From NCBI GenBank assembly GCA_947179485.1, contig OX359246.1:46727632-46791631 (forward strand): a stretch of 64,000 bases of DNA, given 5' to 3'. The stretch is from Allacma fusca. Lineage: Eukaryota; Arthropoda; Collembola; Symphypleona; Sminthuridae. Position 1 is the stretch's first letter. Every line of letters begins with the position of its first letter. Below the pieces are notes generated by a model, which saw only the letters and a program-made list of their open reading frames with translations, searched no databases and was not told the DNA's origin. The position numbers and the translations under genes were made by a program. This document shows positions 5,324 through 61,378 of this stretch, in pieces.

Positions 5324-8061
5324 TCATTTGAGACAGTGATTTCCTGTTATTGCTAGTTCCTGGTCACTAGCAAGTATCTTTACAACGTACTCCAGAGTTT
5401 TGGGATTGAACTTGCTGAAAGTATTGTCGAAGGTTAGAATATCTATGAGAATCACAAACATTGCACATGTTAATGCTTTTTTCCTATCATTGCATACACA
5501 TCGGTCTAAGAAATTGGAAACTCACAGTGCCCTTGCTTTTCACATGTGATCATCCCTTTCTGCACGTGGATATGAGAGTCGACCCGGCAGTTCTTCACAA
5601 TCGACTCGTCCCCCTCATTCCCTTGGAAATTCACACTGAATCCGATGTCGTAGTCAAAAGTTTTGAAATTCCAGCAGATCTGATTGCCCCTTTCCGCATC
5701 CACCTCCACAGTAAAATCTTGTCCAGCTTCTATTTCCTCTTGGATCATTTCATCCTCTGAGTATGTTTTGAAATGTGGGAAGGCATCCAGGTCGTACACT
5801 GAACGATACTGGAAATTTTAATTCATACTTACAGTTAGTACAGAAACTATAATTATCCATACTAACTTCATATGCAATTAATATAGAAAATTACTTTCAT
5901 TGTATCATTTAAGTTTACAAAATAATTTTGAGGCATTCCATCCAAATGTAGATATATAAAAATTGAAACGAAACCTTTACAAGATTTAAACAAGACAAGA
6001 GTGAGAATTTCTGCAAACTCTCCGTTTCTTTTTAACATTGTAATTGCACAGTTTTCCTTATATAATTTAGTACAGAGTCATTTTATCTTGAGATGATTAG
6101 CTTCACTTCTTGTAAATGTTGCATAAATCCCTTTTGGCTTTGTAAATACAATTTGGGGCTACTTAGATTTGGTTTTAAAACTATACTTCAAGGATTTAAA
6201 TTCCAAATAGTAAGCTCACAATGTTAGTTTTTATAGATTGAGTTTATATAATTTATTACATACTCTCAACACTTGAATAATTAGATATATAGTGCTCTTA
6301 CTCCTCGACATGTAGTAATAGCACCGCCATACTCCGAAGGTAAATTATCTGCATCAATATCCTCCAGAAACTGGGTCTTGTACTTGTCTTTGTTACTCCC
6401 ATAGAAAGATATTTTCGCCAGAGTTCGTTTAGTCAGCAGGGGTTTCACAACATGCCAAAGGATTTCAAAGATTTTTGGCACTGAAATGGTCCGTAGCCCA
6501 AAATTATTTGAAACTCTAAATGAACATTATGAGTGAAACTTTTCCTTCCATCAAGTGCTATATTTCCCGTACCATTAATGACTACAACAGCTCGAATATA
6601 CTCCGGGCAGTTAGCTTCAAAGATTCGGACAAGTTCAAGGGCCGTGTCAATTACTATGTATGTTGTATAAACATTATAAGAACATGCATGCAAAGAACTC
6701 ATGAAATATTTATGGGCCACATAGCCACGAATAATTATTTACATTCGAAAGCATTCATTCCGATTATCATTACTCAACCTTCTTTGCTCGCCACTTGTCG
6801 GAACTGAAACCCTTGGCAATCCACAATGCCATACATCTGGAAATAGTACTTATCCTTCGTTGAGATGTGCCGGCATAGGTTTGCAGCGGACTCGAAATGA
6901 CGCATTGCCAACTGCAAGAACAAATCTCTTTGCCCGGATTCCATTCTGGAGCGAACATCCCATTCTCCTACCTTCACTACCCCAACTTTTTTGAAATAAC
7001 AAATTAACAATAAGTTATTTTTTAAAATATCCTACAGATTTTTGTTTGTCAATTTTATTACCACGAGTCAGAGGTTGTGCGTCAAATTTTACCTAAATAG
7101 CCCGCTTTGTCCCGACCTGAAATGATCAAGGGATAGTCTATTTCCATTTCTCCAGGGAACTTGTGCTTCAGAATATTGTCGCAATCGTACTTGAGCCTGT
7201 GCTGGTGGTTCTGGAATAAATAATTAATTTTTTATAATTTTCCGAGTAATTACTCCGATCTTGCATGACATTGAATGGGACGGTAAATATTTACCTTTCG
7301 CATCATTTCCTCAGCTCTTTTCACATTGCATTCTCGCGCTGAAAGGACGTAAGAAATAGTTTTGTTAATGTTATAGCGTTTCATAAAAAAATTTATAATA
7401 AGCTTTGCAGTTAACACTTTCTATACGAGGCCCCTTTGAAGGAGCTTTCTCTTTAGGGACAAAAATACTTGGAATGAGTGTTATTTACTGTAATAATTTT
7501 AAATTTCTTCCATATAAATTGTACAAGCATAAATATACATACGTATAACAGTGAATTTCTTATATAGCGGCTTTCTCTTAGATGGAATTTGCTTTATAAT
7601 GACAGGATTAAATTTCTCCCAGGATTACATACACATTATTTAATATAGTAGGATATATAGCATTGGCATCTCCATATATTTTACCATCCCTTGGGAGACA
7701 CCATATAGTAAATTCATTGTAGGAGTTACTTTAAATGTAGATAAATGCCAATGCTCCTTCTAGGAATATTTTTACGGGGTGTGTTTTCAATCATTTGTTG
7801 ACAAATTTACCTCTTAAGAATCGCAACAAGTTCATGTCATGTCGGTAGAAGTCATCTTGAAACGCAGGTAAGATGTCTTGAATGCGCTTTCGGAGCTGTC
7901 AAATCAAAAGAGTTCAAAATAAGTTAAATTTTTTTCTGCAAACGTCATCAAAAAAAAAATCAGACCAAAAGTGGAGTCATTTGGTGAAGGTACGTGTTCA
8001 AAAGATTTACCTTTTTAATAGCCGCAACCTCTTTAGGTGTAGCTTCAGTGGCTGGGTTCAT
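5324..8061 (-). CDS. SEC14-like CRAL-TRIO/GOLD protein, copy 1
   Basis: Nine exons (transcript order): 8061-8011, 7895-7811, 7338-7295, 7210-7093, 6985-6779, 6653-6573, 6480-6302, 5808-5526, 5442-5324; 388 residues. All junctions are GT-AG and in frame. It starts MNPATEATPKEV; residues 1-60 match a CRAL-TRIO N-terminal domain (YRHDMNLLRFLRA, then ARECNVKRAEEMMRK). Residues about 75-250 form the lipid-binding CRAL-TRIO fold (SGRDKAGYL, VDCQGFQFRQVASKE, LPSEYGGA). Residues about 255-370 form a GOLD domain (WNFKTFDYDIGFSV, CRVDSH, then FDNTFSKF). The family (SEC14L type) moves hydrophobic ligands or phosphoinositides between membranes in the cytosol; the ligand here is unknown. The last exon is the longest in the array, giving a C-terminal tail ending NHCLK. 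Copies 1 and 2 look most divergent. The start was chosen because every copy begins with the same 17-codon exon. Confidence 0.9.
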
Positions 8062-11856: not shown

Positions 11857-13160
11857 ATGCACTTTCTCTTTAAAATCTGTTTTCTAACTTTAGCTTGGGG
11901 TAAGTTGTATCAAAATATCTACCTTATTACATAAAAATGTGCTAATTTCAAAAAGTAGAATTTACTTGATCAATAAATTAATTATTATTGATCAAAACAT
12001 TTTCAAATGTTATCACATGTTTCCGGACGTGTAAATTTTTTTTTATTAATAATCCAGATGTATTTTTGAGTGTAAGTTAATGTCTCATTACGTTGTGCTT
12101 TTATATAAGTATAGGAGCTGACTCAAAATCAAGGGGAAGATATCCGGACACTCAGCCCATTTTGCTGGCGGATGATGAAACTCTATCCGATTCTTTCACA
12201 GCCAATAGCAATCCTTCAATTCAGACAACGGAATTCCCACATCACGTCTCTCTCCAGTACAACCACAAGGCCAAGGGATGGCGCCACTTTTGCAGCGCTT
12301 CCATTATTGACGCATGCGCAGTTCTCACTACAGTCTCTTGCTATAACGTATTTACTAAGGATTCTTCCGATTGGGTCCTCAGAGTGATTGCTGGGGTGAA
12401 TAATCTGAGCATAAATGAACCCACTTGGCAGGTAACCACTGGACAATACATCTTCCAACACCCTCAGTTTGACAAGTGAGCAAAAATATTATTGGTTTTC
12501 GTAAAATTAATTAGATTAGGTCAGTGGGAATATAACTTCTATCAATGTAATTACATGTTTTCAAAAATTTCAGGGTTACATTGAACTACGATTTTGCTGT
12601 GATTTACCTGCGCAACTGCTTTACATTTAACGCTGCGGTCAACTCAACTAGCATGCCACGATCGGATAATCTTGCTGCAAATCAATCATGTATTACTTCT
12701 GGTTGGGACACATTCGGAACTAGTAACACCATCGACCCCACAAAAGTTCAGGGATCAATGGGCGTATCCGACCTGATTGTTGTTTTAGAAGGCGATTGTG
12801 ACAACTATGACCATGGAAACAATGTCATTGCTGATACTATGTTTTGCACTAAAGGAAACAGCTTACAAGTGGTAAGACCAAAAGGGAAACAGCGATTCTC
12901 CTATAATTCTTTACAGTGAACACCATTGTTGTGTAATTAAAATGTTAATTTAATATATATCTGACAGTTTTAAAATGGGTATTATTTTATTTCATTTCAA
13001 GAGGGACTTAGGAGCGCCACTGATTTGTGATGAGTTCTTGACGGGAATTATGACGTATCCGGAGTACATGGGTAATCCTCCCACTGACAAACAAGTGTCA
13101 ATATTTAGCAAAGTTTTTCCAGTAAAAGACTGGATTTTGAATCCATCTTATCATGTATAA
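11857..13160 (+). CDS. secreted chymotrypsin-like serine protease homolog (inactive)
   Basis: Four exons, 11857-11899, 12115-12475, 12574-12871 and 13002-13160, join in frame to 286 residues. Exon 1 is a signal peptide (MHFLFKICFLTLAWG). The S1 fold is recognisable from FPHHVSLQY, HFCSASIIDACAVLT and NYDFAVIYL to the C-terminal RDLGAPLICDEF. Where an active enzyme has TAAHC this protein has TVSC, so the catalytic His is gone. The Asp is kept in NYDFAVI. The GDSGGP motif is replaced by RDLGAP, so the catalytic Ser is Leu. It should therefore not cleave peptides. Arthropod relatives of this kind act outside the cell as cofactors or decoys in immunity, clotting or digestion; which applies here is unknown. 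It has its own TATA box, is on the opposite strand to the SEC14-like array and lies between copies 1 and 2. Confidence 0.85.
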
Positions 13161-18742: not shown

Positions 18743-20902
18743 TCATTTAATCCCTGCGCTTGTAATCCGACATCCATACATGAGAGCCTTTGCAGTGAAT
18801 TTGCTGAAGGAATTGTGGAAGCATAAAGAGTCTGCAAACAAAATAGACAGACAAAATCATATTTTAAGTACTCATCACATAGGGTCTGTTCCAAATGAAT
18901 GCATGTCGCTTCCGTTGTTTGAGTCGTGTTGTAAAGATTTTAACCTATACGAAAGAAAAATATTTTTTACAACTTACAAGTTCCGTCTACTTCACATAGG
19001 AAGGTTCCCTTTTGCAAGAATAGGTGGGAGTCCAAACGGGAATAGCCAATTATGTTCAGAGGTTCGGACTCAGTTTTTAAAGAAACTGAAAATCCAATGT
19101 CATAATCATCCGTTCTGAAATTCCAAGTGAGTCTTTGTCCAGATTGAAGTAGAAACTCCACAGTGTGATCTTGACCAGCGTTAAGAACCAACTTTTGCAA
19201 CTCTCGCTCCGGAAAAACCTCGTACGTGTTTAGAACATCCCAGCCAAGTTCGTACTTAAACTTCATTGGGTCAAGCAGCAAAGATAAATAAATAATAATT
19301 ACATTTTTAATTCAAAAGATATGTAAGTTTAGTCAAAATATGAGATTCCAATCACCAACTTAATTTTACTTCCAATATTTCGTATAAATAGTAATACCGT
19401 CAGGCAAGACGTAATGGCACCGCCATACTGGGAAGGAATGTTGTCCGGATCAATTCTCTTTATCCAATTGTCCCTCCATGTGTTACGATTGCTCCCTAAA
19501 ATCTGGATTTTCGATGCGGTCCTATCCGTCAGCAAAGGTCGGATGATTGCCCAAACAAATTGGAAAATTGTGGGTGCTGAAATGATTTAATAATGCGCGT
19601 TATTATCCATGAGTTCCTCCCTTCTTATTACCAAAATAATATTTAATTGGAGTCAATTGCACGTAATTGGCATTATTACCATTAATTATCCAGGCGCATC
19701 TCAGAAGCTCTGGATAATTGGCAATAAACATTTCTACAATTCTTGGGCCGAATTCTCGTACTGTTAAATTGAAAAAATATTAAATTATTATTATTCTTAT
19801 AAATCCAGTTTAATATCCTCATGTTTAAATACAGTTTGTCTTACCTTCCTTGCTAGCAATCTGCAGTAGTTCCAATCCATCCAAATCCACTATGACATTG
19901 AATTCAGTAAAGTATTTTTCAGAGGTTGACATATTGCTGCATAATTCCAAAAATAGTTCGAAAAACCTTTCCAAATACATCATCATGGTTTGTTCCTGTC
20001 CAGACTCCACTACTTCACGGAAGTTCCATCTGCCAGCGTTGAATGCCACGACTGACATCGAAATATGATTTAATGAATTTACATATTTGAGTATTTGATC
20101 ATTCTAAATTTAGTACGAATGAGTATTATAATATTTTTTTGGTGCAATAGGAACTTCAAATAGATAATTATTGCTGAAATTTGGATTGCAAAACCAGAAA
20201 TCGTAAATCTCACCTGGAAATCCATCACGGCAATAACCGCAGGCTGTCACGGGATATTTGAACTGGAAATCAGGTGGGAGGTGGACGGAGAGAATATTGT
20301 CAATGTTGTTTTTCTGCCTCCATACAATATGCTATTTAAAAATGTTAATTTTTGAATTATTTACAATTTTTAGTGAATTTCATACTCTGGTGCTTTTTTT
20401 TTGAAAGTTGAAATAATTTTTTTAAAGATAATAAAATGTCCACCCTAGTTTTAAGATATACCTTAACTTAATTTATATCATCTTTACGGTCACAGTAGAA
20501 GTCACTAACCTGACGAAGTAAATTCTCGGCTTTTACAATGTTCAGATTCCGAGCTGTTAAAGGATTAGAAGCCGTTAGTCTGTGGCATTTTTGAATGTGT
20601 ATTTGTAATAAAATGTACGTGCAAGTATTATTGTAGTAAATTATAAGCTATAAAATATGAGTCAATATCATACCTCTCAGAAATCGGATGAGGCTGAGAT
20701 CATGGCGCATAAAATCATTCTTGAGGAGTGGGAGGATATTTTGGGCTTGCTTTCGAAACTGGTTGGAAGCACAAAAAATTGTTTTGATTTCAGTATAATT
20801 TGAAATAAAGTTGCTAGCACCTTTTTGGAACTAAATTTATTGAAAACTTACCTGGCAAAGGACAGTGACTTCCTCATCGCTCAATGCTGAAGCGGCGTTC
20901 AT
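18743..20902 (-). CDS. SEC14-like CRAL-TRIO/GOLD protein, copy 2
   Basis: Exons: 20902-20852, 20758-20674, 20553-20510, 20331-20214, 20051-19845, 19760-19680, 19576-19398, 19260-18978, 18831-18743; 378 residues, all in frame. CRAL-TRIO N-terminal part: MRHDLSLIRFLR and ARNLNIVKAENLLRQ. CRAL-TRIO: VDLDGLELLQIASKE, IANYPELLRCAWIIN and IPSQYGGA. GOLD: LTWNFRTDDYDIGFSV and SRLDSH. This copy departs most from the array. The GRDKEGYL motif before the lipid-binding fold is replaced by YCRDGFP. The final FDNTYS of the GOLD domain is FHNSFS, and the tail ends TSAGIK. The FSKF motif is shared with copy 1, which suggests these two form an older pair. A member with altered ligand preference is possible. 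Introns are short (about 80-400 bp). Confidence 0.88.
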
Positions 20903-22503: not shown

Positions 22504-24852
22504 CTAACTTGTCCACACAATGTATCTCAGGGACTTCCCGGTATAAGAACTGTACGTATTGTCAAACACGAGCGTATCTGTCAATTCAAATTACATTTAA
22601 TTATTACACATACAATCGAGTAAAAGCACTTTCGTAAATGGGAATTATTATTATTGTCGTCAGTGAGCTTACACAATCCTTTCCTCTCACAAGTCATTCT
22701 GCCCTTCTGAACGCACAAGTGTGAGTCCACACGACAGGGCTCAAGAACAATCTCATCATCCTCAAAGTCAACGCGGAACATGATGTCAAATTTGTCGGTG
22801 CAGAAGTTCCAATTTATCTCCATCCCGTAGCCCGCATGAACTTCAACCGTGTACAACTGTCCCGGACTTACAACAACTTGGGTCATGTCCTCTTTTGGGT
22901 ATACTTTGTAACTTGGAGACAGCTTCATGGCGTCCAAACCAACTTCAAGTCGAAACTGTCAAAGATGAGTCAGAAATGGTTAAGTTTCAAAAGTGATTGA
23001 ATGTTGAAATTGTTTTAGTACATTCATATTAAGTAAGGAGATCCTACAATACTAGTGGATTTTATAGCGGATAAAAGAGAAGGACAAAAATATGACATTA
23101 CATTTGGACAAGTAGTATTTGCTCCGCTGTACAACGAAGGGAAGTTATCCTCATCAATCATAGTCACAATATCCGCCCTCCATTTATTTTTGTTACACCC
23201 GAAAATCCGTATTTTTGAGGTTGTTCGTTCCGAGATGAAAGGTTTGATGATTCCCCAGAAAATACTGAAGATGGAGGGTGCTAAAATGTGCCAGATGTAA
23301 ATTTATAGCGATTCTATTAAAAATGTGTTTGTAAATAATTTAAAAAGTTCCGCTGTCCTCTTACTATTTATAACCCAAATTGAGCAGAGAGCTTCGGGAT
23401 AGTTGGCTTCAAATACCTTGATGAGGTCCAATATCATGGAAATAACTGAAAATAGTTATTTACAGTAAATCCAATTGCAATCAATTCCAGAAATGCTTTT
23501 TCCATAGTTGAAATTTTTTGGAGGGACATTTGTTGACGTAAAAACTTACATGCTTTGGAAGCTAGCTGCATGTAAGAAAATCCCTCAAAGTCAAAAATTA
23601 TGCAGGCTTGAGTGTAGTATGTTTCATCCGTTGACATCTGATCAGAAATTGCCGCACCCCTTTCAATCCATTGCACAACAAACCATATAAAATCATCTTT
23701 CAATCCGGCATCTACCATGGATCGAAAGTCCCACTTCCCAATTTGTGCTGCGGCAACTGTTAAAATGATATTTACAAATGGAGTAAGTTTTAATTCAGAC
23801 CTTATTGACTGGATAATATTTCTTAATATAACTTTTTACAATATTTGTAAAAAGTTAGAAAGTTAAGGAAGTAATAATTTCATAATTACTTACCTAAATG
23901 TCCTTTTCTATCCCTCCCACAAATTTTAACAGGGAAGTCCTCAAAGAAATTTATAGGTATTTTCGCTTCCAAAATCTCGTTCACATGATTCTCTTCACGC
24001 CATTTCAGATGCTGAAGAATAAATCAAAATGTTTTATTATTGGCACATGCTATAATTATTACATAGTAAGATTATTCTCCCTATTTCCTTCAAATGCATT
24101 TTATCCAAAGAGGTTTTCCAAAATGTCGTTACAAGAGGAGCATATTATAAGAATCAAATTTTGCTCCGATTGGGGATGCTCTTATAAAAACAGCGTACTG
24201 TAAAAGGCAACCCCTATTTAATATTTAATTATTATGGCTTGTTCAGAAAATACATACATACATAATTATGTATATGCACCAGTAGTAAATTTACACAGCT
24301 TCTAGTAAGTACACTATGAGCATGAAATTGTGCCTCACATTTCTCAGCATTTTCTCACTGCGGTCCAAATGGAGGTCACGGGCTAGAGGTTGAAGAATAA
24401 ACCAAAAGAATATTAAAATGTCATACGAGTATTTTAATCAACTTTGCAACACACAACAAACAGCGCTGTTCTTGTCCTTCCCATTTGCATATAATTTCTG
24501 GACAGATTAGTACACAGTTCCGCTTGTTAATGTGTAATTGCACGTGTCCGATATGAGCCAATGAGCCTAAGGTATTTACTATTATGGGTTAAATAGAAAC
24601 AAAGCTTACCGCGAAGAAACCTCAAAAGGGACAAATCATTTCGGAAAAAGTCATTTTTAAACTTAGGCATTAAATCAGGGATCCTCTTCTTAAACTGCGG
24701 GACAATTACATTACAAATAAAAAAAAATAATTTGAACGTACATATGTAGATATGTATATATGTGCTGCGGTGCAGAAACTATTAAAATCTATAGATATTA
24801 CCTCTCGCATTGCATCCGCTTCTTGTGGACTCATTTCCTTAACCCGATCCAT
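22504..24852 (-). CDS. SEC14-like CRAL-TRIO/GOLD protein, copy 3
   Basis: Exons: 24852-24802, 24694-24610, 24382-24339, 24011-23894, 23756-23550, 23445-23365, 23280-23102, 22955-22673, 22577-22504; 373 residues. It starts MDRVKEMSPQEADAM. N-terminal domain: FFRNDLSLLRFLR and ARDLHLDRSEKMLRN. CRAL-TRIO: FEDFPVKICGRDRKGHL, FDFEGFSYMQLASKA and LPSLYSGANTTC. GOLD: INWNFCTDKFDIMFRVDF, CRVDSHLCVQKG, ending FDNTYSSYTGKSLRYIVWTS. The codon across the exon 5/6 junction encodes Phe, as in copy 4, where copies 1, 2, 5, 6 and 7 have Val. With the shared WREEN and ICG residues in exon 4, this makes copies 3 and 4 likely sisters. The donor after exon 6 is A-GTAAG rather than G-GTA, but is still standard. 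Confidence 0.9.
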
Positions 24853-30009: not shown

Positions 30010-30300
30010 CTATGAAAGGTTATTCTTTCCTATCTGGTATATAGGATTTTAACATGGGATTTTTTCTGGTGTATTATATGGAATTTCCACTGGGACGCAC
30101 CAGGAAAATATCTGGTACAAGTTGTGGAATTTGTATTAGGTATATACCATGGTATCAATCGATTATACCAGTCATTTACTGAACCACAAAATGTCAATGT
30201 TAAAGGGCACGTCAGAAAGATTGGTCCTTTGGTTTGGGGCGGGGTTTTGGGCGAAAGGAAGAAGTATCAGGAATATACTGTGATCATTCCCTTAAGAGAA

Positions 30301-30540
30301 ACCAGGTATATTTTCACTACACCGAGAATATACTTGGTATTAATTTTTTTGAAACTGGTGTTGACTATGAGGATTCCCGTAAAAGAAACCAGGTATATTT
30401 TCACTCGACCGAGAACATACTTGGTATCAATTAAAGGTAAACTGGTATTAACAATAAGAAATGAAGTAAGTACCACCAAGTATATTCTGACTCCACCGAG
30501 AACATAACTGGTGGTATTTTTTTTTGCGAAACTGGTGCGG
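30301..30540 (+). repeat. 87-bp tandem units in the left arm of element D
   Basis: Units begin at 30301 and 30388, with a more degenerate third near 30473. Each holds ACCAGGTATATTTTCAC, CCGAGAA-ATACTTGG and an AAACTGGT box. The matching units on the right arm run in reverse orientation. Translating the repeat gives a repetitive frame that should not be read as protein. Confidence 0.7.
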
Positions 30541-31229: not shown

Positions 31230-31517
31230 TGTTATACATAAAGTTATAGTTTATTGTTACTATGGTTTCATTTGTTGGTAGTATTTGGATTTTGTTTGTA
31301 TTTGTGAAGATGTTTGTTGTAAATTGAATGTATGTAATGGAGTTGAGAGAAAAGGGGCATTCACTGTCGAGAGACGGTGTGAGGAAGGTGATTGTGTCAA
31401 AGTTGTATAAGGAAACAGGAAAATTAATAAAGAAAATTGCACATAAGTGCTGGTCCTTCGTAACGTTATTTACCAGAGGTAATATTAAAGACAACTTGAT
31501 ATATAGAGACCATAACA
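31230..31517 (+). repeat. 5' LTR of the BEL/Pao element
   Basis: It starts with TG and ends with CA. It contains TATAAGG near 31408 and an AATAAA polyadenylation-type signal near 31433, as expected for a promoter and terminator in one repeat. The last base is also the A of the gag ATG. Confidence 0.93.
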
Positions 31518-36954: not shown

Positions 36955-36973
36955 TAAAAGTTGTTCCTTTTAT

Positions 36974-36985
36974 GAGGGGAAGAAA
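36974..36985 (+). promoter_or_regulatory. polypurine tract
   Basis: GAGGGGAAGAAA lies directly before the 3' LTR. It is the usual plus-strand primer site for reverse transcription. Confidence 0.8.
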
Positions 36986-37273
36986 TGTTATACATAAAGT
37001 TATAGGTTATTGTTACTAAGATTTCATGTGTTGGTAGTATTTGGATTTTGTTTGTATTTGTAAAGATGTTTGTTGTAAGTTGAATGTATGTAATGGAGTT
37101 GAGAGAAAAGGGGCATTCACTGTCGAGAGACGGTGTGAGGAAGGTGATTGTGTCAAAGTTGTATAAGGAAACAGGAAAATTAATAAAGAAAATTGCACAT
37201 AAGTGCTGGTCCTTCGTAACGTTATTTACCAGAGGTAATATTAAAGACAACTTGATATAAAGAGACCATAACA
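36986..37273 (+). repeat. 3' LTR of the BEL/Pao element
   Basis: Same length as the 5' LTR, with about seven substitutions and no indel seen. It is followed by the CCATG target duplication and then the right arm of element D. Confidence 0.93.
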
Positions 37274-37299: not shown

Positions 37300-37565
37300 T
37301 TACTAGCAGTTTTATACTTGGTGGAAGTTACGTGATTCCTCATTGTCAGCACCAGTTTTTCTTAAGTAGTACCAACTATATTCTCGGTGGAGTGAAAATA
37401 TACCTGGTTTCCCTTACGTGAATGATTACAGTCAGCACCAGTTTCAAAAAAATTAATACCAAGTATATTCTCGGTGGAGGGAAAATATACCTGGTTTCTT
37501 TTACGAGAATCCTCATAGTCAACACCAGTTTCAAAAAAATTAATAACAACTATATTCCTGGTTCA
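37300..37565 (-). repeat. 87-bp units in the right arm of element D
   Basis: These are inverted copies of the left-arm units, for example ACCAGTTTCAAAAAAATTAA followed by CCAAGTATATTCTCGGTGG. At least two full units and one partial unit are visible. The pairing of the arms would form a long stem in single-stranded DNA or RNA. Confidence 0.7.
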
Positions 37566-37706
37566 GTAAGTGTCTGGTATAATTGTAATGTACCAGGTAT
37601 TTTTCCTGGTAGTAGAAACGGGTCTTGATGTAGTGTGAACCAGCATATTCATACCAGGTATGTAGTTGGTGCCGTCTACCAGATAGGAAAGTATATCCCT
37701 ATGAAA

Positions 37707-38671: not shown

Positions 38672-39108
38672 CCAGATGATCTTACTGCCTTGACTCCGGG
38701 TAACTTTGTTGCTGGTGGCCCCCTGACTGCTATAACTGAACCTATATTTATGATCATCTGAAGTTGAATCGTCTTTCAAGATAGCAACTTGTTCAGAGGC
38801 TCAATCAGCATTTTTGGCAAAGATGGAGTGCCGAATATTTAACGCGTCTCGAAGCCAGACCAAAATGGTGGTCCCATCAACCTAATTTGGAAGTTATAAA
38901 CCTGGTCTTGGTAATAGACGAACGCCTCCCATCTCAACAATGGCATCTTGCTCGTATCATCAAGACACATCCAGGTGATGATGGTAAGGTTCGTGTTGTG
39001 ACAATTAAGAGTGGTTCCGGAGAATTTAAGCAACCAATCACCAAGTTATGTGCATTGCCATTTGAAAATGAGGAAGAAGACTGGCGGGCAAATATTGTGC
39101 ACCTCTGA
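38672..39108 (+). pseudogene. fragment of a second BEL/Pao pol gene (integrase C-terminus)
   Basis: PDDLTALTPGNFVAGGPLTA (about 38672-38731) matches the region after the integrase core in BEL/Pao. After a frame change the signal resumes with HFWQRWSAEYLTRLEARPKW. It then gives a DUF5641-type tail from about 38887 (IIKTHPGDDGKVRVVTIK) with a stop at 39106. It is a different lineage from the full element: the latter has LTPNHVLIGP at the equivalent place. No LTR was seen on either side, so it is a dead remnant. Confidence 0.85.
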
Positions 39109-39741: not shown

Positions 39742-40743
39742 ATGAATTGCGGTTTTTGGTGGACATTGTCACTCTTATTCTCTTTTGTCACTCTCTTTCT
39801 GATAATTTCTGCTTACAATGCGTTAACGATTAACGAAAAACCCGAAGAAGAAAATACAGTATTGGATACACCCTTAAAAATTTCCCCCGATTTCTTGAAA
39901 CCTGCAATCTTCTTTAGGAAGCCATTAAACACGAGCTACACCTATGGCAATATTTTTCGGATTAATTTGAAACCAAGTGCAAGCTATACTAAACCAAGTC
40001 TAAACAAATTGTAAATACAAAAGTTGCCTGGTTTGTTTGTTCTTGTGACTTATTCTTACTGACTGGGCTAAATATGTTCTAATATATCTACTAATAACTA
40101 CTACTATAATATCTACTAAATATGTTTGTCTCATCAGGAGAAAATTTCCGCAAGGAATGGTAAATACAGATCGCTAGGAAACCGTTGTCTCTCCCTAGCT
40201 CATATAACATATTTGGGGTAAGGATATACAAACAAACAATTGAAGTTCCCCGTTTTCTTGGAAATTGCCTTCCGAATTTTCAAAAATATATTTTATCGAG
40301 AAATACCTGGACAGGAGCCCGAGGGAAGAAATTAACAGGAGCCAGTTCTGAAAATTACCGTTTTTTTCTGCAAGACCTAACCACTGGGGAAAATTTCAAA
40401 AACGCTAGACCTTTAGAAACTTCATTGGAAATTATTTACCAGCTTTAAGCATTATTACCTTACCATTACCACAAGTCAAAGTTCCGGTTACAGATAATTG
40501 CATGATCCAGAATTCCTACCCAAAATTATTAGCAATATTTTCAGTAACATAATGTTTTCTCATACAAGTGCTTATAACCTTAAAGCAGATTTCTTGTATC
40601 TACAACCCAAAGATTTGACTTCGACTGACGAAATAAAACTCGACAAGGCTAGCATCTTGAAAATGTTTCCTAACCACCAAGTCTTACACAATTATTTAAC
40701 GTGCCCTTGTTCCTATTACGTCTTTGACCCCTTTAGCCTGTGA
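39742..40743 (+). CDS. unassigned plus-strand frames, possible type II membrane protein or pseudogene
   Basis: Three frames follow one another: 39742-40014, about 40161-40448 and 40498-40743. The first starts with ATG and a strong hydrophobic anchor (FWWTLSLLFSFVTLFLIISA, residues 5-24), then polar sequence; it looks like the signal-anchor exon of a Golgi or secreted protein. The first and third are in the same frame; the second is in another. They could be exons of one gene, since a CAG acceptor precedes the second part at about 40138, or a broken copy. I do not recognise the family. They occupy the place where exons 7-9 of the truncated SEC14-like copy 4 would be expected. Confidence 0.3.
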
Positions 40744-41081: not shown

Positions 41082-42310
41082 CATTAATGATCCAAATACA
41101 GCGAAGAAATTCAGGATAATTTGCTTCGAAAACCGTCACTAACTCAATGACCATGGAAATGACTGAAAGAAATTATAACACATTTCATTGCTCAAATTTC
41201 AGGGATACATGGTTCTGAAATATCAGTTCAAAACTAAAATAATTATTTCATTCATTTTTCAATACATAATGTCTTGTCTGGTACAAGAAAACTCACATGC
41301 TTTCGAAGCCACCTGCCTGTACTGAAGCCCTGCTAAATCCAAAATTAGGGAAACCGCAGAGTAAAATTTCTCTTCCGTTGTCAACTGAGCGCAAATGTCG
41401 GTGGCTCTTTCAATCCATTGGATAACAAACCATATAAACTCATCTTTCATCCCGGTATCTACTGCAGATCGAATGTCCCATTTCCCAACTTGAGCAGCAA
41501 CCACTATTGGAAATATCCGAAAAAATCTTACTAATTATTTAGCACAAATGAAAATAATGAACCCACAGATTTAAAGCTCAGCTCATACATGTGGAATCAT
41601 ACATTAAATAGAAGTACATTTCTAATCTAATAATAATTTTTGTTAATTTATAATCTGTGCATTAGAACCTTTAAATTATATTCCAAAGGCGACAAAAATA
41701 TAATTATTATTACCTAAATATCCTTCTTTATCCAAACCACAAATTTTCGCCGGAAAATCCTCATAGAAATGAATCGGGACTTTTGCTTCCTGGACATCGT
41801 CTACTTGGTTCTCTTCACGCCATTTTGTATACTAATTTGTCAAGTGAAACATTTTAATGAAACTGGAGTTATTTTATTGAGGTGACCATTTAATTTATTT
41901 ATTTTAAAAATGTGAACCGATATTTTTTTTTAAACCAATGAAATATATTCTTACACTTCTTAGCATAGACTCAGCTTTGTTGGAATTGAGTTCTCGAGCT
42001 ATCAAATTTTCAGTAATAAAACAAAATTAATTACAAATATTCTCCAATAATTTTAAAAGGTGGAAATCCTGTCGTATGTACCTCTGAGAAATCTTAAAAG
42101 TGACAAATCGTGTTGTTCAATTTCCCTTTTGAATTTAGGAATTACATCGGATACCCTTCGTTTGAGCTACATAAGTACAGACGATTATTAAAATGTATAT
42201 TTTAACATTTTAGAGTGACGGATCATAAAAATAATAAAATTATTTTCCTTAAGTCATACCTCCTGAACAGCTTCTACTTCCCTCGGACTCATTTCCGTAG
42301 TTGGATCCAT
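41082..42310 (-). pseudogene. SEC14-like copy 4, truncated after exon 6
   Basis: Exons: 42310-42260, 42166-42082, 41998-41955, 41831-41714, 41503-41297, 41162-41082. They have the array's exact exon lengths and encode about 195 residues in frame. It starts MDPTTEMSPREVEAVQE. Other motifs are EQHDLSLLRFLR, WREENQVDDVQEAKVP, KICGLDKEGYL, LDLAGLQYRQVASKA and FEANYPEFLRCIWIIN. A good donor follows exon 6, but no exon 7, GOLD exon or last exon is found in the next several kilobases. The product would lack the end of the CRAL-TRIO fold and the whole GOLD domain, so it is probably non-functional. It shares the Phe at the exon 5/6 junction and exon 4 residues with copy 3, its likely sister. Promoter-side exons are clean of stops, so the loss may be recent. 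Confidence 0.85.
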
Positions 42311-44673: not shown

Positions 44674-47600
44674 TCAACTCTTGCGGACAATATACCCAAG
44701 GGATTTTCCGGTGAAGGAACTGTAAGTGTTGTCAAACGTGAGGGTATCTGAAAATAAATCATTTCGAATTGAGATCATTTTAATTATACTATTACATTCT
44801 AATAAGAGTTTAAATGACTCGTAATGGCTTACACAATCCGCTTTTTTCACAGGAAATAAACCCCTTCTGAAGGCACAAATGGGAGTCCACACGACAAGGT
44901 TTGATTATATCCTCAGTTTTGTTAAACTCAACCCCAAAGATAATGTCACAACTGTCAGTGAGGAAGTTCCAATTGATTTTTTCCCCAATGTTAGCCTTCA
45001 CATCGACTGTGTGTGTTTGTCCTGGACCCACAAGCACTCTCTTCCTGTCCTCAACTGGGAATATTTTGTAACTCGGGGAAATTTTTCTCACATCAAAGCC
45101 TTGCTCAATATTGAACTGCCGAAGGAATATTCATTCAATTAGTCATATTTTTTTTAAATTGGGTTTTAAATCTGCATTTAGATGCCTATCAAAAATGTAT
45201 CAAAGGATGCTTAGACAATTACATCGGGGCAGGTAGTATTGGATCCGCCGTAGATAGAGGATAAATTGTCTTCATCAACCATTGACAAAATATCCGCTCT
45301 CCATTTATTCCGGTTGCTCCCATGGATGCGAATTTTTGAGGTGGTTCTATCCGTGAGGAAGGGCTTCACAAGTCCCCACAAAACACTGAATATTGCTGGG
45401 GCTGTAATAATTCAAAAAAATAATCTAAAATAAGTACAAGTCAAAAATCCTGAAAGGATTTATAATAATACCACAAAATATTAATACTAATTTGTTGTTA
45501 CCATTAACAACCCAAATAACACGCAAAACTTCAGGGTAGTTAGCTTCAAAGATTTTGACTAGCTCCAGGATCACAGAAATTACTGAAAGTCAAATACGAT
45601 ATGTTTCGTATACAAATTAAAATTTAAAAAGGAATTAATAAAGCAAAAAATTGAGGGAATAAGCCAAAGTTACAAGTGAATTTTATTTAAGACTTAAACT
45701 AAAGCCGTACCAGTTTTCGACGCCAGTTGCGTGTAAGCAAAACCTTCAAAATCAAAAACAAGGCACACTTGAAAGTAAAATTTTTCATTGGTTGTCAGCC
45801 TCTCAACAATGTCCGCTCCCCTTTCGATCCATTGGCAGACAAATAAAATAAATTCATCTTTTAGTCCGGATTCCACAGCGGAACGGAAGTCCCATTTCCC
45901 AATTGGAGCGATTCCAACTGAAAGTCATATTTATTATTTCTTTTACCTTTGCAATAACCGAACACCTTAAAATGCTTGGGAATAACAAGAAAAAACCTTT
46001 GAAGTACCAGGATATCCCTCTTTGTCAGTTCCGCATATTTTGACAGGAAACTCTTGAAAAAATTGAGGAGGTACTTGATTCTTTTGTATTGAATCCACGT
46101 CATTCTCCGCACGCCATGTCATGTGCTGTAAAGATATTTACATAATTTGGCTCATCATTCTTCTTTACAGAATAGGATTGGAATTTCTCATTTCCTTTCT
46201 GAGAGATATGAAGAAGCTCTTTTGTTTCTTACGTTTCTTAGCATGGTTTCTGCTTTGTTCAAATTCAAGTCCCGGGCTAAAGAATATGATAAAAAATATT
46301 AATAATACTGCGTAGAGTGTATTTTCAGGCATTTTTATTTTATCCTCACTTTGTCAATTATAGGATTTCTTTTGAAGTAAAAATTACAAGGAAACATTTG
46401 ATTATCTACAAATTGAATTTTTTTCTCAGTATGAAAACATTAGAGGACATAATTACATTTATATGAGCATTTGATTTACATTTGCATGATTACTTCATAT
46501 TAGAAGGAATAATTACATGTAAATAGAGCAACCACAATAGAAACAAAATTAGAACAACAATAACAACGCATTCCTGCACTTTAATAGAAAAAGATTAAAG
46601 ATCGTGCATCATAAATTAATAGCTTGCTTTTTGAGTCACACCAACAATAAAAATTATGAGCAACGAACTTGTCTGCCATGCCAGACTCTCAATGACTCTG
46701 TCTCTGTGTTTATGCAAATGCATACAAAAAAAAAGAATTGTAAAACCAGTTGCTCACTCCAAATAACTGAAAATAATAAGTGAGCCGATTATGTCTCATT
46801 AATTTTGCTAGAGGGACATTGACAAACTTGTTTGCCTAAATTCAACCCTCAACATTTTTGTAATTTGTTCAAAAGATTTCAATCACGTGTTAATTATTTG
46901 AGAGTGTTGATTTAGCATTATAAATCCACATTCCGATCAAAATCTAGGGAATAATTTACAAGTATTTACTTTCAAAATGTTGAAATACACTGTAGTGTCG
47001 ATATCCATTGTTGACTGTTATTCATCTCAATCCAGACTTTTTTTTATTTAAAAGTTGGATTTTTATTGCTTTAGTGCAGGGCTTTAAAAAGTGATTTAAG
47101 TTCCAATCACGTTCAGTTTGTCCCAATACTTACTTTCTTACATTAGGTTTCCCCATATTTTGTACACAAGTATTTTGTACCAACGGAAATACTGTAAATG
47201 TGTATGAAAGTGACGACAGCATAGGGCTGAGATATTTATTTATTTTAATCAAGTCCAGAACCCACAAACCCAACGTATCCACAATTGACATATAATTCGG
47301 AACGTGATCAAAAACTATTATTATTACACACCGGCGTTTCAATCCCTTCTCTTTCAAACCACAGGAGTAAAAGAGGATTGGCCATGTGTGAATACTGCAC
47401 ATGCACTATTTCTGTGCAAGCCGTACGTAACATCAAAAGTAAATCCAACACATGCTTAACAAATAATAGCTAGATACATATAAGTATATAATCAGGCAGG
47501 TTGTTGTGGCAATAAATAAAAACCTGTTTGAGTGAAAGAGATGCAACTCTTAAAACTCCTGCAGCTTTTCCTTTACACTGATTGTAAGGATAGGTCAGGT

Positions 47601-48590
47601 TTGTATGCAATTTTACTATGCCTTGAATATCTACATATTGCACATATGTATGTTGATACGCACTGGTGAGTAAGCACAAATTGAAATGATTACATAAATA
47701 CACACATGATTACATACATAAATGGGATAAATCTGGCTGATATCAAAAGCGTGATGGACTATCAAGTGGAATTAAAATATCCATTTGAGAATAAAATTGC
47801 ATTTTGTAATACTGTACCTACACAAATCGTTTTAGGAGCTCGTGTCAATCAAATCATGGATTTAATATGACAGCTTACATCATAATCTAAAAATAAAATC
47901 GTAATGTGAATTTCATGTGCAATTGTGTTTATATCACTGCCAGAATCCCTTAGAAATAAAATTAAACGGAAGGAAAAAATGATTAAAAAATACAGAATTG
48001 TAGTAAAACATCGTGCGTTTTTTTTGTTCGGCTATAATTATGTACATAGCTAGCGTTCAATGCCTATCCTTATTAACAATAAAGTCTGAGTCCCTTGGCT
48101 AATGTTAATTATTTGATTCTAGAAATTCAAACAGGTCTTTGAACTCTGCTAAATGAAAATGCTGACAATGAGCACTCTTTGAACGGGGACACTCTACGTT
48201 ATTGCAATGTTAAAAAAATAATATTGTGGTAAATAGGAATATGTTCCCAAATTATTTTGACTCTCTACGAAAGAACAGTAGAAATTTGAGTCCCTCAATA
48301 CAAGAGCTAACTGTTGAATGCCTGATATTTTTATTATAATTGACAAATTGTGACTGTTAATAAAGAACTCACCCCTTAGAAATCTCAAAAGAGCCAAATC
48401 TTGCCGGTAAAAATCACTTTTGAACTTTGGTAGCAAATCCGCTATCCTTTTTCGGAACTATGGGGAAAGAAAGGGGACAATTTTTGAGCCAATTATAATT
48501 TTGTCACCCCAAAATAAAAAAAAAGGATCTGGACCGTACCTCCACCATAACTTCCGCTTCTTTCACACTCATTTCCTTGACGGGGTCCAT
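44674..48590 (-). CDS. SEC14-like CRAL-TRIO/GOLD protein, copy 5
   Basis: Exons: 48590-48540, 48457-48373, 46276-46233, 46125-46008, 45917-45711, 45582-45502, 45401-45223, 45115-44833, 44747-44674; 373 residues in frame. It starts MDPVKEMSVKEAEVM. N-terminal domain: FYRQDLALLRFLR and ARDLNLNKAETMLRN. CRAL-TRIO: FPVKICGTDKEGYP, FDFEGFAYTQLASKT and FEANYPEVLRVIWVVN. GOLD: INWNFLTDSCDIIFGVEF and CRVDSHLCLQKG, ending FDNTYSSFTGKSLGYIVRKS. GRDKEGYL has become GTDKEGYP. The exon 4 donor is GTACTT, weaker than in the other copies, so splicing there is the least certain. Intron 2 is about 2.1 kb, much longer than elsewhere in the array, and holds no recognisable gene. A 37-bp GA repeat lies about 80 bp upstream of the start. 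Confidence 0.88.
46277..48372. other. long second intron of SEC14-like copy 5
   Basis: About 2.1 kb of AT-rich intron, against 70-480 bp for intron 2 in most other copies. No transposon ends or coding region were recognised. Confidence 0.6.
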
Positions 48591-50348: not shown

Positions 50349-52522
50349 TTAGCTGGTCCATACAATGTACCTTAATGATTTCCCTTTGAAGGAGCTGTAG
50401 GTATTGTCGAATACCAGAGTGTCTGGAAAATATTAATTTTATTAATTTGGGAACCAAATTGTTGAAAATTCATATTGAAGTCTTAAATAGTTGTAGGAAC
50501 TTACAAAGTCCACTTGTCTCGCAGGAGATCTTGCCCTTTTGAGTACACAAGTGTGAGTCCACACGGCAAGGGCGGATGACCTCCTCGTCAGTCTCAAAAT
50601 TAACACGGAAATTAATGTCACACTTCTCAGTAGCAAAGTTCCAGTTGATTTCCGTCCCGCTACTGGCATTCACTTGAACTGTGTACGTCTGCCTCGCTCC
50701 TACAAATACTTTCGTCATGTCTTCCAGCCCGAATGTTTGGAATCTTGGGGAAATCTTCTTGAGGTCGAAGTCGGTATCATTGTTGTACTGGACAGAAGAG
50801 ATCAAAATCATTGAAATATGAAGGAGATCAAGGTCTTATTATGTACAGAGTGTGGATTAAAATGTAATTATTACATCGGGGCAACAGGTATTTGCTCCAC
50901 TGAACTCAGATGGAATGTTATCCTCATCAATCATATTTAAAATGTCAGTTCTCCACTTGTTCTTATTTGAGCCAAAAATACGGATTTTGGAATTAGTCCT
51001 CTCAGTGAGGAATGGCTTGATTACTCCCCAAAGGACATTGAAGATAGCTGGAGCTAAAAAAGTAAATATGAGATGTGAAATGGTCTGAATTTTTGTGACC
51101 TAACAGTCAGCAATGTTTCAACAATAATCACATGAGTAAATTGGAGAACAACAAAAAATTAAAAAACTGAGATATATCAAAATTTGACGTACCATTTACG
51201 ATCCAAACAACCCTCAAAATCTCAGGGTAGTTTGCCTCAAAAATCTGAATCAGCTCGATGACCATAGAAATGACTGTAAAATAATAAATAAAATTAATGA
51301 GTAATTAAATTGTAACTTTGCTCTCAAATGCATGGGAACATCAATTCCTCAGATGGCTACCTGCTTTGGAGGCTAATTGTTTGTATTCAAATCCTTCAAA
51401 ATCAAAGACTACGCAGAGCTGGGAATAAAATTTCTCCTTTGTAGACATTTGATCACAAATATCCAAAACTCTCTCGAACCATTGGACAACAAATAGCACA
51501 AACTCATCTTTCAAGCCGGACTCTACCATTGATCGGAAATCAAATTTGCCTACTGGGGCAGTAGCAACTGAAACAAAAAATTAACTTTTTTGAATTTTGT
51601 ATTTCAAGCTTATTATTATTTGCTCTGCATTCTTTTTGCTTATGGAATTTGAGGGGAAACTATATCTATGCTTACCCAAGTAACCTTCCTTGTCCCTTCC
51701 ACTTAATTTCACGGGGAAATCCTCAAAGAATTGAGGGTAAATTTGCTCATTCAGAATATTGTCCACTTGGTTCTCTGCCCGCCAGTTAATATGCTGTAAT
51801 AGAATACATTATTGATTAAGGGTTTATTAGAAATTGTAATAGCTCTCGCTCAAAAAAAATTATTACGCTTCCAAATTTCTTCTACTGTGCAAAAAAATGT
51901 AAGAAAATTCGGAATAAATAAATATAGTTAATCATTAAAGTAGCTTTCTCTTACTTTCCTCAGCATTTCCTCAGATTTGTTCAGATTGAGCTCTCGGGCT
52001 GGAAAAAATAATACAAGTTCAAGAACTATTCCAGACGCATTATAATAAGGCATGGCATTGAAGACATTAGACTTAAACCGGAGTACAGTATAATATGAGA
52101 CGAGCCAGACTGCTGAGTAATTATAATTTCAGTAAAAATTGTTTAAACTATGAAAGCAATTTTTTTAGCATTTTGTCAGAACCTGCTTATAACAGGGTTC
52201 AAATCTCAAAATCAACGATCCGAAGTCTTCCGTATTTACAATACAAATACAATTGTTTCAACTTACCTCGGAGAAATCTCAAAAGTGACAAGTCCTGACG
52301 CAGGAAGTCACTTTTAAATTTGGGTTCCAAGTCCGCAACTCGTTTTCTGAGCTGGAAGTAAAAATCATAAATTCAAACTTTTGCCAAATTGTTTTTTTTG
52401 TATCAGAACAAAACCTTCTGATGTTCAATTTCAAATTTTAAAAAAACTCTGGAATTTTAAAAAACAATTACCTCTTGCACTGCCTCAACTTCCTTCACAC
52501 TAAATTCTGTGGCGGGATCCAT
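50349..52522 (-). CDS. SEC14-like CRAL-TRIO/GOLD protein, copy 6
   Basis: Exons: 52522-52472, 52351-52267, 51998-51955, 51793-51676, 51567-51361, 51273-51193, 51053-50875, 50787-50505, 50422-50349; 373 residues in frame. It starts MDPATEFSVKEVEAVQE. N-terminal domain: FLRQDLSLLRFLR and ARELNLNKSEEMLRK. CRAL-TRIO: WRAENQVDNILNEQIYPQFF, KLSGRDKEGYL, FDFEGFEYKQLASKA and IPSEFSGANTCC. GOLD: INWNFATEKCDINFRVNF and CRVDSHLCTQKG, ending FDNTYSSFKGKSLRYIVWTS. It serves well as the reference copy: every family motif is present and introns are short. It probably binds a lipid-like ligand in the CRAL-TRIO pocket and uses GOLD for protein or membrane contacts. Neighbours 5 and 7 are close relatives. Confidence 0.92.
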
Positions 52523-57785: not shown

Positions 57786-60700
57786 TTAGTCCCCTAATGT
57801 TCTGGTCCACACAATGTATCGGAGGGGCTTGGCAGTGAAGGAACTGTAGGTATTGTCGAACACCAGGGTATCTAGAATTCAACGTAAGATTCGTGAGCTA
57901 TTAATAATTTATTAAATTAGGGATATAATGTGACATTGAAATTATTATTCATAATTGGTCAGTGACACACTAAGATCCTTAGAGATGGGCTGTAATTTTA
58001 TTATTAGTCTTGGTAGCTCATAGCACTTACATAATCCACTTTTCGCACAAGTAAGGCTCCCCTTCTGATTGCACAAATGTGAATCCACACGAAGAGGCCC
58101 AATGATGCGTTCATCATCCTCAAAATTGAATCCGAAAGTAATATCACAATTCTCAGTCCAGAAGCACCAAAGGATTTGTTCCCCAACCTTAGCAGAAATG
58201 TCCACACTGTAAAGCTCCCTCGCCCCCACACATACCTTCTTCACGTCATTGATCTGGAACTCTCCAAAATTCGGGGAGAGCATTTTAATGTCAAAGTTGA
58301 GCTTGAGGTTGAACTGTAACAAAAATAGTCTTAAATTATTAGAATCTTTTAATTATTCATATTTACATAAAGTTACGTATGTATATATTCACAACGTTAA
58401 TGACTTCCATGATTAAAGAACGTAAATTATTTGATTACATCAGGACAAGTAGTATTAGCTCCACTGTATATTGAGGGGATATTCTCTTCCTTGACCATAG
58501 ACACAATATCAGCTCTCCATTTACCTCTGTTACTCCCATGGATGCGGATCTTTGAGGTTGTTCTTTCAGTGAGGAAGGGTTTGATAATGCCCCACAGGAT
58601 GTTGAAGACTGCTGGAGCTACAATTCCCCCCACAAAATTCAGTAATTAAAGTAAATCAAAAGGAATGGTAATAATTTCAGTATTCCTCATTTGCAATGAA
58701 ATTAACCTACCATTTATAATCCAAATGACCCGCAGTACTTCAGGATAATTAGCCTCAAAAATCTGAATGAGCTCAACGAGCATTGTAATTACTACAAAAT
58801 AAATAATATTTTACGTGACATATTAGTTCCAAATCAAATAATTACATTTGGACTGTAAGTTCTGAACGCATTTTTATGTAAATTGAGACAAAAGTTCAGA
58901 GCTCCAGCTCATTAAAAGAGGTACCTCCTTTGGACGCCAACTGTCTGTAGGCAAAGCCCTCGAAATCAAAAATAATACAAAGCTGGCCATAGAATCTGTC
59001 CTTTGTTGACAACTGGTCGAAAATGTCCACGAGTCTTTCGAACCATTGGATAACAAAAAGAATGAATTCATTCTTCAGTCCCGCTTCCACAGCGGATCGA
59101 AAATCCCATTTGCCAATCTGAGCAGCAGCCACTGTATGAAATATAAAAACTAGTTATAGACAGCCCAATATGTAATTATGTATTTCATGAGCAAATACTC
59201 CCCAAGTATCTACATGTTTGCATCATCCCCGGTGTCATTTTTCGTGCCAATAAACTATACAAACTTTCTGAATCCCAATGAGACGAAACAAGTTACGAAA
59301 GGGGAAAAAATGCAATCCTGTCCTCTCCGTTGCATTTGAGTAAGTGTCAATAAACAAGTTGCAGTTCTATAGGGATGCATATTATAGTAGAAGCCAGAGA
59401 TTTCACACATATATATTTAATGCGCTCGCAATTTAACATACACCACACAGTGGGATCTTACTATAAGGGCATTCCTAAAACTTTGAGGGGAATAAATTGA
59501 CCATATACGTGGAAAAAAATGATTGTTGGAAGCCACGAGAATTTTACATATTTTTTTACTCCTTCAACAGATACTCTAATCAGGGCATCTCTTGTACAGA
59601 GCCTACACTGTACATAGGGATCTGTATTCCCAAAACACTAGCAACAAATGACTTGACTCACATTGCGTGAGAAACTTACCCAAGTATCCTTCTTTATCCT
59701 TGCCGCACAACTTAACGGGAAAATCCTCATAGAAATGCAAGGGCAATTTCTCCTTAAAAATCTCATCCACTCGGTTTTCCGACCTCCAAAACAGGTGCTA
59801 TTTAAATGTGAACAAATGGGCCGTTAAAAACCAAACTTTATCAGTTCCTCCTGTCAAATCTCCGGACTACATTATTGTACATAGCACATGATTAAATTGA
59901 ATCCTGCTATATGTATACGTGCATTTCATACCTTTCGCAGCATTTCCTCAGATTTATTCAGGTTCAGGTCTCGGGCTAAATAGCGAGAGAGAGAGAAAAA
60001 AAAGTAAACCTTAGTTTAATGACGACTTTAAATTATTTTGATCCAGTAAATCTAGAATTTCTACTTTTTCCCAACGTCTCCCCCCATCATTAAAATACGA
60101 AGGGAATTGTAACGTTTTACATGCAATCTTATATCTATACTATGTTATAGTAAAAGTAGAATCCTCGTAGCAAAATACACGTGTTTCTGTATATATATAT
60201 AAGCACCAACGCGCCGGCAGATATAGAGTCAAGAGATTTCACAGATATTTTGTATTTGGAAAGTATTTAATTGCAGCCTTGATTAAACAATTAAATGTTT
60301 TGTAAACGGAAGTCAATTCAAGTGGGAACAAGAAAGTTGTATTTTCCCACAAAAGTTACTTATTGAAGACATATTTATTTTCAAATTATTTCACAAGTAA
60401 AATTTGTTCTTGACATTCAAATGTAAAAAAAAAGGGTTTGTGTCTCCTGCATAATGTGTTGATATTAACATGGGCTTAAACACTGAGCCTGTCATTATAA
60501 AGACCATTGAAGGAGGAGAATACAGGGATTTCATGGGAATTAGTAGTAAACGCTGTAGAATTAGCACAATACTTGAATGAGCTGGAGATAACGGAAATAT
60601 TAGTACTCTATAGTTGTTGTTGTAATCTATTTATAATTACATGAGACATTAATCCATTGGAAGGGAAGCACAAGACTCAGGCTTTGGCTTCTCTTTCAAA

Positions 60701-61378
60701 ATCCAACTCCTGGTAGAGTACAATAAGTTATAAGTATTATGGGAGGTGTGAAGGAATAATGGAGGCAGTCACTGTTGAAACTGCAGGTCATTCCCTCCAA
60801 AGTAGCACGCTAATGACACTCAGCACAGAAACCTGATTTTGATACGAAGATGCGAGTCATAGGAGCAAGATTTCGCTTTCTCTTTCTATGCAATCCCTTC
60901 AGATTATAGACTGCAACCCTGCGGTCTCCCTACATTATTGAGTAATACTTATATATGTGCCACATAGTTGGCGAGCATGGTTTGAAGTAGTAAACAGTAC
61001 GCTAGACATCTTGCGTACGAGCAATTACTGTATTATGATTGTAACTAGGAACTGTCCCACTCATATATGACTCATGGGGAAATATATCTGTAAACAAAGG
61101 TTACCTCTGAGGAACCGGAGAAGGCCCAAGTCCTGCCGGTGAAAGTCACTTTTGAATTTCGGGATCAAGTCCGTGACACGCTTTCGGAACTGTAAGGAAT
61201 AATAAAAAAAAAATACGCACAAACAATTTAGAAAAACATTGGAGCTTTAAACAAATAAAAAAAATTGTTTTTCTAGGAGTGGATGTCCTGAGCATTAAAT
61301 TTATGGATGGTTTTTTAATTGAATTACTTCTCGGACTGCTTCCAGTTCCTTTTGGTTCATTTCCGTGGCAGGGTCCAT
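57786..61378 (-). CDS. SEC14-like CRAL-TRIO/GOLD protein, copy 7
   Basis: Exons: 61378-61328, 61189-61105, 59975-59932, 59797-59680, 59131-58925, 58791-58711, 58617-58439, 58313-58031, 57871-57786; 377 residues in frame. It starts MDPATEMNQKELEAVRE. N-terminal domain: FHRQDLGLLRFLR and ARDLNLNKSEEMLRK. CRAL-TRIO: FEDFPVKLCGKDKEGYLG, FDFEGFAYRQLASKG and IPSIYSGANTTC. GOLD: ILWCFWTENCDITFGFNF and RVDSHLCNQKG, ending FDNTYSSFTAKPLRYIVWTR plus four more residues (TLGD). The extra tail comes from a later stop than in copies 3, 5 and 6. The WNF core of the GOLD domain is WCF here. Intron 2 is about 1.1 kb. It is the first copy of the array in transcription order within the window. Confidence 0.9.

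Follow-up and report, generated by a model that had tools for sequence, protein, structure and literature searches.

Why do seven neighbouring genes with widely differing products share the lengths of almost all their exons, and what does this regularity say about the lipids that they might bind? The question is posed by a stretch of 64,000 nucleotides from the genome of the springtail Allacma fusca (contig C8, positions 46727632-46791631; hereafter the window), which a first-pass annotation described as a tandem array of SEC14-like genes with an invariant set of exon lengths and diversifying binding residues. Sequence comparison indicates that the array is probably an old expansion of cytosolic SEC14-GOLD lipid-transfer proteins of the SEC14L2/TAP type, a kind already known. 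The exon-length regularity is less striking than it first seemed, as equal lengths partly mask small indels, and the size of the family is of more interest than its exon ruler.

The genes and their family

The minus strand was scanned for exons of the annotated lengths that had an ATG or AG start, a GT or GC end and an open frame. Seven SEC14-GOLD genes were recovered, all on the minus strand, six complete (A, B, C, E, F and G) and one truncated (D). They extend from the start of exon 1 of copy A at 61378 to the end of the stop codon of copy G at 5324, so that both the tandem expansion and the coordinates of the seven-copy array, 5324..61378, had been given exactly.

57786..61378, minus strand: copy A, complete, 377 aa; exon starts 61378, 61189, 59975, 59797, 59131, 58791, 58617, 58313, 57871
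50349..52522, minus strand: copy B, complete, 373 aa; exon starts 52522, 52351, 51998, 51793, 51567, 51273, 51053, 50787, 50422
44674..48590, minus strand: copy C, complete, 373 aa; exon starts 48590, 48457, 46276, 46125, 45917, 45582, 45401, 45115, 44747
41082..42310, minus strand: copy D, truncated after exon 6; open frame of 195 codons with canonical splice sites
22504..24852, minus strand: copy E, complete, 373 aa; exon starts 24852, 24694, 24382, 24011, 23756, 23445, 23280, 22955, 22577
18743..20902, minus strand: copy F, complete, 378 aa; exon starts 20902, 20758, 20553, 20331, 20051, 19760, 19576, 19260, 18831
5324..8061, minus strand: copy G, complete, 388 aa; exon starts 8061, 7895, 7338, 7210, 6985, 6653, 6480, 5808, 5442

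Frames are open in all seven models, and all 53 introns proved to be GT-AG although the scan itself had allowed GT or GC. For exons 2-8 the true copies scored above every false candidate (for exon 4, at least 1.48 versus -0.28 per residue). Exon 1 of copy F, scoring 1.14 against 1.21 for one false candidate, did not rise above chance by score alone and was assigned from its position upstream of F exon 2. The exon 1 ATG lies 17 codons before the common exon 2 in all seven copies, giving full proteins of 373-388 aa, and the extra N-terminal region (PRELI) of the SEC14L1/L5 type appears to be absent from all seven of these DNA-derived models. By inspection, the N-termini lack a signal peptide.

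The annotated SEC14-like CRAL-TRIO/GOLD identity was borne out by both domain and structure searches. Residues 6-370 of copy B matched SEC14L2 best in the PDB (E 6e-43), followed by SEC14L4 (5e-41) and SEC14L3 (9e-40); its top entries, 1o6u, 1olm, 4tlg and 4uyb, aligned over nearly the full length, and alpha-TTP and CRALBP matched far more weakly. Two of the seven copies, B and F, were scanned against Pfam and contained CRAL_TRIO (PF00650; E 8.7e-33 and 9.7e-25, respectively) and GOLD_2 (PF13897; 2.6e-9 and 3.4e-8). The remaining full copies align to B and F across the GOLD region, which is absent from the truncated D. CRAL_TRIO_N (PF03765) was found in B (E 2.7e-5) and fell below threshold (E<=0.001) in F, but F aligns there without gaps. 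The presence of GOLD places these genes outside the CRAL-TRIO-only class of alpha-TTP and CRALBP.

Other elements lie between the copies:

12081-13157, plus strand: trypsin-family exons between F and G (Pfam Trypsin, E 7.5e-9 and 1.1e-8)
30277-30519 and 37364-37567: inverted repeats on either side of the retroelement, built of 87-nt units in tandem and 80-88% complementary
31230-37273: retroelement of BEL/Pao type whose frames are broken by stops, with a pair of 288-nt direct repeats (98% alike) and Pfam Peptidase_A17 in one open piece
38785-39105, plus strand: second BEL/Pao-like fragment (Pfam DUF5641, E 3.8e-34)
39742-40740, plus strand: three open frames just downstream of D

The BEL/Pao element and the plus-strand open reading frames sit between D and E. 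The flanking inverted repeats suggest that the retroelement lies inside another repeat element. DUF5641 is a BEL/Pao-associated domain. The three open frames at 39742-40740 had no Pfam match at E<=0.05. The catalytic His and Ser motifs usual in trypsins seem to be absent from the trypsin-family exons, which may therefore belong to a serine protease homologue. Rfam and tRNA searches of the window gave no match, and a search of viral contigs gave no relative of it.

Exon lengths, cancelled indels and the wider family

Exons 1-8 measure 51, 85, 44, 118, 207, 81, 179 and 283 nt in the six full copies, precisely as first annotated, and D agrees over exons 1-6. Exon 9, including the stop codon, measures 86, 74, 74, 74, 89 and 119 nt in A, B, C, E, F and G, the extra residues being C-terminal. 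The further statement that no indel is tolerated does not hold, as exon 8 of F and G hides compensated indels and copies outside the window change exons 2, 4, 5, 7 and 8.

18978..19260, minus strand: exon 8 of copy F, 283 nt, with a 3-residue loss and a 3-residue gain relative to A, B, C and E
5526-5808, minus strand: exon 8 of copy G, in the same compensated-indel state as that of F

All eight cross-group pairs (F or G with A, B, C or E) score -2 to 47 ungapped versus 109 to 199 gapped, each gaining 99 to 166 score units from 6 to 8 gap letters; none of the seven within-group pairs (among A, B, C and E, or F with G) needs gaps. The 283-nt length of exon 8 is thus constant because the loss and the gain cancel.

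The window also cuts a longer array. In a search of the 393-Mb genome, exon models built in matching stretches only placed 26 copies (15 + 1 + 7 + 3) at C8 46.12-46.82 Mb, all on the minus strand, so that the array comprises about 26 same-strand copies over 0.69 Mb; in the same interval the CRAL_TRIO search gave 25 matches and the GOLD pairing 20. Outside copies were modelled over exons 2-8, and exon chaining there dropped exon 3 candidates scoring below 30 and, beyond block K1, exon 2 candidates below 33. Of the 16 outside copies in which exons 2-8 were all resolved, 15 break the ruler. Among all 20 modelled, only that at 46.796 Mb fits it over these exons, while those at 46.803, 46.812 and 46.681 Mb, the 15 of the sister cluster (46.13-46.42 Mb) and a copy at 26.7 Mb violate it. 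By best-scoring borders, with only same-phase lengths searched, length changes affect exon 2 in 17 of 20 outside copies, exon 4 in 8, exon 5 in 6, exon 7 in 2 and exon 8 in 15 of the 16 copies that yielded one; exons 3 and 6 are unchanged in all 20. The annotated rule that only the last exon changes length therefore stands inside the window (exon 9, 74-119 nt) and breaks down among the copies outside it. Within this same-phase search, intron positions and phases are conserved across the modelled exons of window and outside copies alike.

The copy at 46.803 Mb, with changes in exons 4, 5 and 8, branches as sister to a clade that unites the 46.796 Mb copy with A, B, C and E and leaves F and G outside (support 100), in a tree based on a 22-copy alignment that, like the rates derived from it, leaves out D and four outside copies without a located exon 8. 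The ruler therefore breaks among relatives closer than F and G are to A, B, C and E. The four copies left out, which are either truncated like D or too divergent, are:

C8 46.127, 46.284, 46.414 and 46.422 Mb (L023, L013, L021-L022), minus strand: exons 2-7, exon 8 not found in the fetched stretch

Beyond this array, copy C as a GOLD query (E<=0.01) found 63 places genome-wide (64 rows minus its own exon 9 row), of which at least 58 pair with a CRAL-TRIO match on the same strand that either shares their alignment or lies no more than 3 kb upstream, and five are unpaired; all these counts are lower bounds. The 58 paired loci are places whose gene models were checked only where fetched, and some show only the last part of CRAL-TRIO. 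They include the following:

C12:16.64-16.67 Mb (L001-L003, L005, L006): five intronless SEC14-GOLD genes in tandem, single open frames
C1:49.50 Mb (L004): one intronless SEC14-GOLD gene, single open frame
C10:23.39-23.43, C1:15.06-15.11, C1:74.55-74.64 and C8:31.05-31.14 Mb (samples L038-L047): further SEC14-GOLD clusters

The six intronless genes have open frames of 390-427 aa. The one on C1 groups with human SEC14L2-4 (support 97, long branches) and, on this placement, may be a conserved ancestor-like copy. In the clusters on C10, C1 and C8:31 Mb, the regions of exons 7-9 are fused in one open frame of approximately 170-210 aa. The end of contig C1 (L032) carries a long TTAGG/CCTAA telomere-type array, and about 386 of the 393 Mb fall into six large contigs of 48-82 Mb; both features suit an arthropod and speak against Diptera. 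No SEC14-GOLD expansion in an insect was described among the literature matches listed.

Could selection on exon length itself, for the splicing or dosage of exact sizes, keep the ruler? The constancy of exons 3 and 6 in seven window and 20 outside copies would fit, as would the absence of gaps in exons 1-7 among the six full copies versus five on the branch to human SEC14L (P ~0.0035, calculated by hand from the tree). That indel deficit was dropped as a candidate result once copies beyond the window proved to differ in the lengths of exons 2, 4 and 5, and the variation of outside copies in exons 2, 4, 5, 7 and 8 largely refutes the explanation, which we regard as extremely improbable. Being short, exons 3 and 6 should collect few indels, yet exon 2, hardly longer than exon 6, does vary, and relatives without introns exist. 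Human SEC14L2, L3 and L4 have no internal gap across their matched 374-residue stretches at 70-78% identity, so gap-free paralogues at such divergence are not peculiar to the array. The ruler is instead mostly inherited gene structure, with purifying selection and, in part, the chance cancelling of indels; together with a window that cuts a longer array, these can produce a striking regularity of this sort.

Selection, the ligand pocket and copy D

The copies are old: their introns are no longer alignable and their synonymous sites are mostly saturated. Identity is 61-68% among A, B, C and E, 36-47% between F or G and the other copies and 39.5% between F and G, and intron-to-intron blastn among the copies gave no match at E<=1e-3. 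Of 21 pairs, 15 are too saturated for NG86 dS to be defined and six give values of 1.28-4.32; dN within A-E is 0.22-0.28.

Codon models, in our own implementation and on one assumed topology, gave an M0 omega of 0.130 for the seven copies, indicating purifying selection and upholding the strong constraint proposed at the outset. M2a did not improve on M1a (2ΔlnL 0). M8 fitted nominally better than M7 (2ΔlnL 6.46), with an added class at omega 1.01 whose two top columns, both in the GOLD region, had posteriors of 0.92 and 0.89; this reads as relaxation rather than adaptation. With A-E only, M7 versus M8 gave 2ΔlnL 1.18 and M8 equalled M8a, and no site class clearly above 1 emerged in either set. 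Such tests lose power to detect ancient positive selection when synonymous sites are saturated, as here. An omega of 0.005 on the F branch is put down to saturation. Exon-block trees, made as a check for gene conversion, disagree with mostly low support.

The pocket was defined by 22 alpha-TTP ligand contacts, 20 distinct residues from Table 3 plus Ala156 and Val191 from the text of PMC3496730, which were transferred by alignment of distant proteins and not from a structure of the window copies. The alpha-TTP sequence was checked against the PDB; PMC3496730 gives Leu218 where alpha-TTP has Ile. Among the seven copies, mean posterior omega is 0.119 at the 22 pocket positions versus 0.152 at the other 138 CRAL-TRIO residues (permutation P for a value as high or higher, 0.94); in A-E alone the values are 0.137 and 0.156 (P 0.78), and amino-acid rates across 22 copies are 0.91 and 0.98 (P 0.71). 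No pocket site is among the 30 most variable sites in the seven copies or in A-E, and two are among the 40 fastest in the 22 copies versus 2.65 expected. The proposal that binding residues diversify thus fails because positions matched to alpha-TTP contacts were not faster than other CRAL-TRIO positions in any of the three tests, and the clustering of variable sites at the lipid pocket, named beforehand as the deciding test, was not seen.

The residues that hold phosphatidylinositol (PI) in yeast Sec14 are, by comparison, well kept. In Sec14, R65 and T236 are PI-binding and Y111, Y122, S173 and T175 are phosphatidylcholine (PC) residues. Positions R65, E207, T236 and K239 are kept in 20, 22, 21 and 22 of 22 copies (85 of 88 cells) and each in all six intronless copies (24 of 24). 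The four PC positions are hydrophobic or small in all seven window copies, largely as in SEC14L2-4; at the Y122 position SEC14L4 has Tyr and the window copies do not. Passages of PMC4331669 report E207 and K239 as essential for PI transfer, and their PI role is also documented in a section of PMC3313917. Kept PI residues are no proof of PI exchange, because they are general in the Sec14 superfamily and Sfh5, according to an extract of PMC7462610, keeps them yet shows only marginal PI exchange. Likewise, PC binding is still possible despite the lost residues, because SEC14L2 itself is reported to bind PC along with tocopherols, squalene and PI, tocopherol competing with PI (excerpt of PMC4077815).

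As PI residues are kept while the PC positions are hydrophobic or small, the proteins may act as cytosolic lipid-exchange or lipid-presenting proteins in which the conserved Sec14-type residues would hold the PI headgroup and PI would be swapped for an apolar second lipid. This second lipid could then be presented to enzymes in the membrane, and the GOLD domain would determine contacts with membranes or partners. The head-to-tail array would be one cluster of a large genome-wide SEC14-GOLD family, whose copies most likely diverged in where or when they act rather than by fast pocket change. A bolder version, in which at least 58 loci in nine-exon, 3'-fused-exon and intronless forms make up a family of PI-coupled lipid sensors for many apolar dietary or signalling lipids, with PI coordination kept in nearly all copies examined and a second-ligand pocket that differs between subfamilies, is speculative and on balance improbable. 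If the copies do bind different lipids, they would offer a natural series for probing the role of the second ligand in Sec14-type proteins.

The annotated comparison with odorant- or detoxification-type expansions, in which pockets diverge under selection for different small lipophilic compounds, draws on the large number and clustering of the copies and on pocket positions that vary between subfamilies (B residues 123 and 150 are among the 40 fastest sites of the 22 copies). The pocket, however, was not faster in any of the three tests, no class lies clearly above omega 1 and the inspected N-termini carry no secretion signal, which makes this reading unlikely. A still less probable view takes several of the copies for pseudogenes or for duplicates made in assembly, and not for working genes. 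That suspicion centres on D, which lacks exons 7-9, with no remnants in the window (best stray match E 0.038), and whose branch has a raised omega (0.304 versus 0.096, 2ΔlnL 6.57, on one assumed topology). This rise is suggestive only, because seven branches were tested, and omega 1 is not rejected for D (2ΔlnL 3.3). D carries no stop codon, whereas neutral simulation leaves the frame free of stops with a probability of 0.24 after 0.05 substitutions per site and of 0.008 after 0.2; any decay is therefore recent. The lack of stops favours either a recent loss or some remaining function. The other six copies are complete and open, omega is low across the set, N runs are absent, and copies at most 68% identical are not assembly duplicates. 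An old expansion of working SEC14-GOLD genes thus remains the preferred reading.

Comparison with known SEC14-type proteins

The window copies share the CRAL-TRIO fold with both alpha-TTP, which served as the pocket yardstick, and yeast Sec14, and neither of these is known to have a GOLD domain; the 278-residue PDB chain of alpha-TTP ends after its CRAL-TRIO part. Alpha-TTP also lacks three of the four Sec14 PI residues, with Arg at the K239 position. Yeast Sec14 has R65, E207, T236 and K239 in common with the window copies, in which its PC residues Y111, Y122, S173 and T175 are not kept. The CTD genes of Heliconius are likewise a lineage-specific tandem CRAL-TRIO duplication in an insect genome, but the array here joins CRAL-TRIO to GOLD, and GOLD-bearing copies are not described for the CTD genes in the available part of PMC5739039.

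The closest resemblance is to human SEC14L2, SEC14L3 and SEC14L4 (TAP1-3), which have the same three domains in identical order and share the four PI residues with the window copies. SEC14L2 is 29.5-33.1% identical to the six full copies over 356 aligned residues, and the human proteins differ in a longer GOLD loop and other loop indels on the human side. The human SEC14L2-4 genes also form a tandem cluster, on 22q12. This subgroup has three genes in human, in contrast to dozens of loci here, and with 58 paired CRAL-TRIO and GOLD places in one genome, insect SEC14L functions should not be inferred one-to-one from human SEC14L2.
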